NCBI GenBank assembly: GCA_021295815.1
Contig: JAGWBQ010000011.1
Coordinates: 1-64,000, forward strand
Direction: 5' to 3'
From: Gemmatimonadota bacterium
Lineage (GTDB): Bacteria; Gemmatimonadota; Gemmatimonadetes; Longimicrobiales; Gaopeijiaceae
Length of the DNA stretch: 64,000 bases
The notes below the pieces were generated by a model that saw nothing but the letters and a program-made list of their open reading frames with translations, made no database searches and was not told where the DNA came from. Shown piece after piece: positions 36,948-38,767 of this stretch (the stretch's first letter is position 1; every line of letters starts with the position of its first letter). A program made the position numbers and the translations under genes.

Positions 36948-37856
36948 ATGCCAGCCCGCCACGGTAACCACGCCCGTAAGAGGGATCGGACAACTCAGCA
37001 ACTGCTCGCCGGCTTCGACGCCGGTGTCGAGGAGCAGAGTGCGCTCGACCAGTACCTGCAGGACGTGAGCCGCCACGAACTCATCACGGTCGAGCAGGAA
37101 AAGGCGCTCGGCGCCCTGGCTCAGCAGGGTGACGAGAAGGCCGTCAAGGCGCTCGCCGAGGCGAACCTCCGCTTCGTCATCAGCGTGGCGAAGAAGTACC
37201 AGAACCGCGGCGTCGCGCTCACCGACCTCATCCAGGAAGGCAACGTCGGCCTAATCACGGCTGCGAGGAAGTTCGATCCCAACCAAGGGGTCAAGTTTAT
37301 CAGCTACGCCGTGTGGTGGATACGCCAGGCGATTCTGGCCGCCCTCGCCAATCAGGGCCGGCCCGTGCGCGTCCCCCTCAATCGCGCAAGCGATCTGGCG
37401 CGCATCTTCAGGGAGAAGGAGCGCTACAAGCAGAAGCACGGCAAGGAGCCGGAGTCGGCCAAGCTGGGCGAGCTCACCAACCTGACGCCCGACCTCGTCG
37501 AGTCTCTCCAGACGCTCAACGCGGCCGAAATCAGGCTCGACGCACCGATCGGCGACTCCGAGGACTCGCAGTTGGTCGAGCGCTTCATTTCGGAAGAGGC
37601 GGCGGAGCCGGAGATCGAGGTCGAGAACCGGGTGCTGCAGGAGACGATCTCGCAGGCGCTCTCCGGCCTCGATGACCGCGACGCTCAGGTGCTGCGTCTC
37701 TACTTCGGACTCGACGGCGGCCGCCAACATACTCTCGAGGAGATCGGCAAGGAGCTCGGCGTCACCCGCGAACGCATTCGTCAACTCCGCGACCGCGCCC
37801 TCCGAAGGCTGCGCACCGGAGATCTCGGATCCAAGCTGGCATCGTTCGCGGCGTAG
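36948..37856 (+). CDS. rpoD: Primary-type sigma-70 factor, short form without region 1.1
   Basis: Protein of 302 residues. Region 1.2 (SALDQYLQDVSRHELITVEQE), region 2 (ANLRFVISVAKKYQNRGVALTDLIQEGN, then FDPNQGVKFISYAVWWIRQAI), region 3 (GRPVRVPLNRASDLARIF, then PESAKLGELTNLTPD) and region 4 (LDDRDAQVLRLYFGLDGG, TLEEIGKELGVTRERIRQLRDRALRRLR) are all present. Region 1.1 and the long non-conserved region of E. coli RpoD are missing, as in other primary sigma factors outside Proteobacteria. In-frame sequence upstream lacks conserved residues, so I chose the ATG at 36948 with GAGGA close before it. rsgA follows and probably overlaps its end. Confidence 0.93.
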   Translation: MPARHGNHARKRDRTTQQLLAGFDAGVEEQSALDQYLQDVSRHELITVEQEKALGALAQQGDEKAVKALAEANLRFVISVAKKYQNRGVALTDLIQEGNVGLITAARKFDPNQGVKFISYAVWWIRQAILAALANQGRPVRVPLNRASDLARIFREKERYKQKHGKEPESAKLGELTNLTPDLVESLQTLNAAEIRLDAPIGDSEDSQLVERFISEEAAEPEIEVENRVLQETISQALSGLDDRDAQVLRLYFGLDGGRQHTLEEIGKELGVTRERIRQLRDRALRRLRTGDLGSKLASFAA

Positions 37857-38767
37857 TCCACCAGGCCGGGGGAGGCAGATACCTTGTCTGCCTCGGACTC
37901 GGCCGGTACGTCGAGGCCACCGTGCGCGGCAGGCTCAAGCACAGGGAGAGCGAGCTCGAGAAGATAGTCGTCGGCGACTCAGTCGAGCTCTCCGGCGGGA
38001 ACTCGTCCTGGACGATAGAGTCGGTGGCCGGACGCCGCACTCTCCTGGCGCGCCGCGGGCGGGGCGGCACCACCGGCAAGTTGATTGCCGCGAACGTCGA
38101 TACGGCTTTCGCGGTGATCTCCGTTCGCGAACCCAGGGCCAAGCTCGAGCTTGCCGACCGCCTCCTCGTCCTCGCCGAGGCCGGTAGGCTGAGGCCGGTG
38201 CTTGTGGTCAACAAGATCGATCTGCCGGACGGCGACCTGATCGCCGACAGCTTGCTTTCCCTTTACCGCACCGTCGGATACCGGGCTCTAAAGGTCAGTG
38301 CGACGACCGGCACGGGGTTGAGCGAACTCGTTCAGGAGATGTCCGGATCGCTCTCCACCCTCATCGGGCCTTCCGGGGTCGGCAAGTCCTCGTTGCTGAA
38401 CGCCATCAAGCCGAGCCTCGGCCGTCGGACGGCTCCGGTCTCCGGTCTCGGCACGGGCAGGCACACGACCGTCAGTTCCAGAATCGTCTCGCTCGTCGGA
38501 GGCGCGTCGGTGGCCGACACACCGGGATTCGCCAACGTAAAGGTCTGGGGTCTCGGTCCGGCGGAACTCGTCCGCTGCTTTCCCGAGTTGAGGAGGCTCT
38601 CTCCGTCCTGCCGCTTCCGGGACTGCGCCCACATCGCCGAGCCCGATTGCGCGGTGCGGGAGGCGGTCGGTCGAGGCGCCATCGAAGGATCCAGGTATCG
38701 GAGCTACCTGGACGCCCGGACCGAGGCGGCCGAAGCCCTGCCCGAATGGAGCGCCGCGAGGACATAG
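37841..38767 (+). CDS. rsgA: Ribosome small-subunit-dependent GTPase A, probable AUC start
   Basis: Circularly permuted GTPase that acts in 30S subunit maturation. G4 (NKIDLPDG), G1 (GPSGVGKSS), G3 (DTPG) and the zinc site (SCRFRDCAHIAEPDC) are clear. The first ATG/GTG/TTG in frame is the GTG at 37922, but the 27 codons before it encode GVVHQAGGGRYLV and YVEATV, which is the conserved first part of the OB-fold domain. That frame has no ATG, GTG, TTG or CTG back to a stop at 37673. An ATC at 37841 stands exactly where family proteins begin (B. subtilis CpgA has four residues before the same strand). Starting there gives 308 residues and overlaps the rpoD end by 16 bases. Confidence 0.85.
   Translation: MVRGVVHQAGGGRYLVCLGLGRYVEATVRGRLKHRESELEKIVVGDSVELSGGNSSWTIESVAGRRTLLARRGRGGTTGKLIAANVDTAFAVISVREPRAKLELADRLLVLAEAGRLRPVLVVNKIDLPDGDLIADSLLSLYRTVGYRALKVSATTGTGLSELVQEMSGSLSTLIGPSGVGKSSLLNAIKPSLGRRTAPVSGLGTGRHTTVSSRIVSLVGGASVADTPGFANVKVWGLGPAELVRCFPELRRLSPSCRFRDCAHIAEPDCAVREAVGRGAIEGSRYRSYLDARTEAAEALPEWSAART

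Follow-up and report, generated by a model that had tools for sequence, protein, structure and literature searches.

A probable near-cognate AUC start of rsgA within the 3′ end of rpoD in a Gemmatimonadota bacterium

The rpoD–rsgA junction and the N-terminus of RsgA

The analysed DNA, referred to here as the window, is a stretch of 64,000 nucleotides from contig 11 of the genome of an uncultured Gemmatimonadota bacterium (2.47 Mb, 35 contigs), the genus of which contains no other genome. The gene rpoD (36948..37856, plus strand) encodes the primary sigma factor of 302 amino acids. It starts with the ATG at 36948 and ends with the TAG at 37854–37856, which follows the C-terminus LASFAA. The product of rpoD matches the NCBIfam RpoD models (E 2e-77) and shares 79% identity with RpoD of the relatives, in which rpoD is likewise located directly 5′ of rsgA. 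The gene rsgA follows on the same strand. Its product scores over the cut-off with PF03193 (E 4.9e-45) and with TIGR00157, and contains the permuted GTPase domain and the C-terminal zinc-binding region expected of RsgA, with invariant C261, C266, H268 and C274. The best PDB matches of the window RsgA model in the Foldseek search are all RsgA/YjeQ. A second, more divergent RsgA-like gene, the product of which shares 35–38% identity with the window protein, is present in the genomes G060, G061, G066, G067, G094, G095 and G128.

The 5′ end of rsgA is not evident from its reading frame. The frame is open from 37676, immediately after the TGA at 37673–37675, through to 38767. For 82 codons, from 37676 until the GTG at 37922–37924, the frame contains no ATG, GTG, TTG or CTG, which bears out the original prediction that such codons are absent for more than 80 codons. 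The only AUN codons in these 82 codons are ATC 37829–37831 and ATC 37841–37843. Translation from ATC 37841 reads M-V-R-G-V-V-H and gives a coding sequence of 308 codons (37841..38767, plus strand) that overlaps rpoD by 16 nt. Translation from ATC 37829 reads M-Q-A-G-I-V-R-G-V-V-H and extends the overlap to 28 nt. With the aligned V of RGVV as the reference and codons as the unit, ATC 37841 has position −4 and ATC 37829 has position −8; in the majority of family members, the start falls in the range from −3 to −10. ATC 37841 had been proposed earlier to lie where members of the family begin. Its position is indeed a typical one, but the second in-frame ATC at 37829 had been missed.

The region upstream of GTG 37922 encodes a conserved part of the protein. 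The OB-fold pattern of the family, G-x-V-x(4)-GG-x-Y-x-V, lies 5′ of this GTG, and the peptide IVRGVVHQAGGGRYLVCLGLGRYVEATVRG fits the family pattern GxVxxxxGGVYxV...EASLRG. An alignment of 43 sequences shows no variation at G8, G15 and G16 (counting from 37829), and all three residues precede the GTG. The tblastn alignments with relatives start at residues 1–4 counted from 37841. The AlphaFold model of the window RsgA (pLDDT 90) contains the strands E4–14, E17–23 and E26–32. GTG 37922 corresponds to residue 32 in the numbering of the model, and a start at this codon would delete the OB strands β1–β3. According to the model and the Foldseek comparison, the protein has its N-terminal OB fold only when it is translated from a start 5′ of 37922. 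The alignments, the invariant glycines and the model thus confirm the earlier claim that OB-fold sequence is encoded 5′ of the first NTG codon. The GTG at 37922, 31 codons after 37829, is the first canonical codon of the frame, and the match to the GTPase domain would be unaffected by a start there. RsgA might then be a naturally truncated protein, with the upstream homology as a relic. Such a protein would have lost OB strands 1–3 together with glycines that are invariant in the family, while its GTPase motifs are intact and the gene does not look degraded. We consider the truncation very improbable, and GTG 37922 was rejected as the native start.

As judged from the sequence, ATC 37829 is as good a start candidate as ATC 37841. 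The latter occupies the commonest family position, −4. The N-terminus encoded from ATC 37829 resembles that of the orthologue L163, which starts with a GTG at −8. The Shine-Dalgarno-like sequence CGGAGA (37817..37822, plus strand) lies 6 nt before ATC 37829 and is too far from ATC 37841, for which no Shine-Dalgarno sequence was found at a working distance. The predicted duplex of CGGAGA with the 3′ end of the 16S rRNA of the window genome (...CACCTCCTTA) has an energy of −6.6 kcal/mol, which is similar to the background inside genes. The strength of the Shine-Dalgarno sequence was also tried as a means of telling the two codons apart. It proved uninformative: the coding background is nearly as strong in this GC-rich genome, and true starts do not stand out from it in the calculation. 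In the early rsgA coding sequence (37864..37904, plus strand), a strong hairpin with a 7+10 bp stem begins 23 nt after ATC 37841. It is the most stable among 121 family and order orthologues over the same stretch (−29.4 versus a mean of −15.1 kcal/mol), and it spans the internal GGGGGAGG.

Start codons of rsgA in related genomes

The start regions of rsgA were compared in 114 sequences from the same family and in 87 others from the order and class. A gene was flagged when no canonical start was found between positions −21 and 0. Eleven family sequences were flagged. One of them, L129, was discarded as an alignment artefact: its N-terminus is of low complexity, and the first alignment had placed a GTG at −7. 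This leaves 10 of the 114 family genes without a usable canonical start, while none of the 87 genes outside the family lacks one. Within the window, ten other long open reading frames have more than 40 start-free N-terminal codons, and none of them shows family homology 5′ of its first NTG. Together, these counts indicate that the start-free stretch of rsgA is beyond chance.

The ten genes represent three clades, namely the window lineage, the genus g45 and a subclade of g19, and additionally the genome G055. The three clades are separate from each other on the tree of RsgA and RpoD, in which the window forms a long branch. In three species of the g19 subclade (L164, L165 and L168, from G033, G036 and G043), the start region reads TGA GGA CGy CCC ATC GC, with GAGGA 6 nt before the ATC. 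Since an in-frame stop is located four codons before this ATC, no other AUN or NTG codon can serve as the start. The three species differ from each other at 19–32% of the 4-fold sites, which rules out an assembly error as the source of the AUC. In their sister L152 (G038), the sequence is TAG CCT CTG, with a CUG start. In-frame AUC or AUA codons are present in all five g45 species, four of which have no usable canonical start. The codons found are ATC at −7 in L039, ATC at −10 and ATA at −7 in L028, ATA at −7 and ATC at −4 in L037, ATC at −4 within CTG CTG ATC in L041 (G119), and ATC at −7 plus a GTG at −2 in L043. In L039 and L028, the near-cognate codon comes directly after the end of rpoD. 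Both in the window and in four of the five g45 species, rsgA has a start that either overlaps the stop codon of rpoD or lies a short distance beyond it.

AUH codons between −10 and −3 occur in 8 of the 10 genes without a canonical start and in 14 of the 111 others (Fisher p 1.3e-5, kinship ignored); as the genes are related, this enrichment carries the weight of three clades. The exceptional starts are not all AUC. Besides the CUG of G038, the gene of G055 has neither a canonical nor an AUN start. In this single-contig genome, the 107 upstream codons of the open rsgA frame (L139) contain no NTG, and AUN is absent near the start. The AUN start is conserved within the g19 subclade and g45, and most relatives use GTG, ATG or TTG. 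The original prediction had suggested that the rpoD–rsgA junction be aligned across related genomes, and had regarded an ATG at the corresponding place in orthologues as a sign of an error or a local mutation. Many orthologues do have GTG or ATG there. The AUC start is not refuted by them, given the independent clades in which AUC or AUA stands at the equivalent place and a canonical start is absent. These clades give good support to the proposal that an AUC within the last part of rpoD is the start of rsgA.

The window sequence belongs to a metagenome-derived assembly of 35 contigs without a close relative, and a single C-to-G change at either ATC would give ATG. A true ATG at one of the two positions might thus be hidden by an error of sequencing or assembly, or have been lost very recently by mutation. 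A missed base was considered and rejected. One and the same stretch of overlapping bases encodes the SFAA-stop of RpoD and the RGVVH of RsgA, both of which are conserved; an indel, which would break one of them, is excluded in practice. An NTG in place of ATC 37841 would cost RpoD a conserved Ser. The AUC and AUA codons at the equivalent place in other clades come from independent assemblies and diverged genes, and they show that the phenomenon is real beyond the window. We therefore regard an error or a recent mutation as improbable.

The overlap of the two genes and the openness of the rsgA frame for 55 codons 5′ of 37841 could also suit a frameshift or a stop readthrough out of rpoD, which would yield an RpoD–RsgA fusion or a cleaved product. 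No slippery heptamer was seen near the end of rpoD. The frame of rsgA relative to the rpoD stop differs among species, being +1 in G117 and G121, 0 in G118 and −1 in the window, and an in-frame TGA separates the two genes in the g19 species with AUC. The frameshift that had been named earlier as the alternative is thus not supported, and a fused product is hardly credible. Near-cognate initiation of rsgA, by comparison of the sequences, is well supported.

The rpoD overlap, control genes and initiation factor 3

Most relatives have a spacer between rpoD and rsgA, with a median length of 111 nt and often with a hairpin. This spacer is gone in the window. In the overlap, any NTG read in frame with rsgA places TG at the beginning of an RpoD codon, which then encodes Cys, Trp or a stop. 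The RpoD tail SFAA-stop is conserved, and an NTG at 37841 turns its Ser codon TCG into the Trp codon TGG. The conserved Ser of RpoD forbids NTG at 37841, and regulation is not needed to explain its absence. The ATC at 37841 requires the Ala codon GCA, which accounts for 6.7% of the Ala codons of the window. For g19 and g45, where the codon is located outside rpoD, the constraint imposed by RpoD offers no explanation.

Two further structures were observed in the spacers of these clades. In L164, L165 and L168, a perfect inverted repeat of 11–14 bp begins right after the stop codon of rpoD and reaches almost to the start region of rsgA; in L152, folding predicts a similar stem between these two points. 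The stem of the g19 subclade brings the rpoD stop close to the Shine-Dalgarno sequence and effectively shortens the spacer. The rpoD–rsgA spacer of L041 (G119) contains a strong, terminator-like hairpin with a T-rich tail, located some 15 nt 5′ of CTG CTG ATC, implying either readthrough or a separate rsgA promoter in this genome.

Other genes of the same genomes served as controls. The start of rpoD is canonical in 126 of 126 readable cases; the seeming lack of a start in the rpoD of L022 comes from a run of N. The rbfA start is canonical in 27 of 27 genomes, and the same holds for the Era/Der starts in 27 of 27 readable genes. The infC gene of 30 family genomes starts with ATC in 28 cases, including the window genome, and with ATT and ATA in one case each. 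These near-cognate infC starts are typically preceded by a GGAG-like Shine-Dalgarno sequence; most of the g45 genes without a canonical rsgA start have no well-spaced one. From these counts, the ribosomes of this family appear to initiate routinely at AUC, with rsgA joining infC only in some lineages. The search for Era gave only Der-level matches in G000, G050, G051, G041, G042, G033, G043, G055 and G007. Some of the genomes with only such matches are near complete, which suggests that several lineages, that of the window among them, either lack era or have a highly divergent copy.

We propose that rsgA is translated from a near-cognate AUC, at 37841 or 37829, within the last codons of rpoD, and we consider this likely. 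The AUC would be read by the initiator fMet-tRNA, and translation of rsgA would probably be coupled to that of rpoD. The window lineage may have lost the spacer and, with it, the canonical start, which would have moved the rsgA start into the constrained 3′ end of rpoD. An AUC would be tolerated there, being compatible with the conserved Ser of RpoD, whereas NTG is not. RsgA is needed in low amounts, so weak initiation should suffice.

In E. coli, IF3 inhibits non-canonical starts and re-initiation at sites poor in Shine-Dalgarno sequence (PMC2268962), and the GUC start of Streptomyces sigR is repressed by IF3 (PMC5472188). Because of this inhibition, rsgA is expected to be sensitive to IF3, and the synthesis of RsgA may rise when the stringency controlled by IF3 is low. 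The AUC might even have been selected as an IF3-linked device for feedback similar to that of infC. Such a role concerns the reason for the AUC and is compatible with AUC initiation itself. It is in line with the near-cognate infC starts of the same genomes, with the repression by IF3 described above, with the persistence of AUC or AUA within two other clades, and with the action of RsgA on the 30S subunit, from which it releases RbfA as IF3 does (PMC9032327). Against it, most family members use GTG or ATG, rbfA, which also encodes a 30S factor, has a canonical start in every genome examined, and the overlap with rpoD alone accounts for the absence of NTG in the window. Selection of the AUC for feedback is possible but unlikely. 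As reasons for the AUC, the conserved Ser of RpoD that forbids NTG and feedback appear equally good, and IF3 feedback on rsgA is only plausible and is put forward here as a hypothesis. A wider form of this idea would hold that rsgA of this family repeatedly moved to AUC, AUA or CUG because weak, IF3-sensitive initiation makes the production of RsgA, a GTPase of late 30S assembly, depend on the condition of the 30S subunits, in an infC-like homeostatic loop that connects ribosome assembly with initiation fidelity. We regard this as rather doubtful.

Comparison with known systems

To our knowledge, very few bacterial genes start at AUN, and gene finders ignore such codons. No non-AUG start of rsgA has been described in the literature searched, most subscription journals lying outside its scope. 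The present analysis would add rsgA to the genes with AUN starts, backed by the comparison of several clades and by control genes of the same genomes. It also suggests a route by which such a start may arise: the loss of a spacer pushes the start into the protein-constrained end of the neighbouring gene, where NTG is disallowed. Furthermore, it raises the question of whether 30S-assembly factors are tied to the stringency of IF3 as IF3 itself is.

The classic AUN-start gene is infC, which encodes IF3 and starts with AUU or AUC under autoregulation in E. coli and Streptomyces. Similar to infC, rsgA would combine an AUN near-cognate start with a product that acts on the 30S subunit. Unlike IF3, RsgA is not an initiation factor; the near-cognate rsgA start is restricted to few clades, and the window codon lies inside another gene. 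Autoregulation is established for infC, whereas feedback is a hypothesis for rsgA. A second parallel is Streptomyces sigR, which also has a non-canonical start in a GC-rich genome. Its GUC start is conserved across species and was overlooked by annotation (PMC5472188). The sigR GUC has a very strong Shine-Dalgarno sequence and demonstrated control by IF3, whereas the rsgA codon of the window overlaps rpoD. The position of the rsgA start, overlapping or closely following the rpoD stop, resembles that in overlapping gene pairs translated by termination-reinitiation (PMC10666635, PMC2268962). The known coupled pairs have NTG starts and overlaps that are often 4 or 1 nt, whereas rsgA would start with AUC or AUA and, in the window, overlap its upstream gene by 16 or 28 nt.
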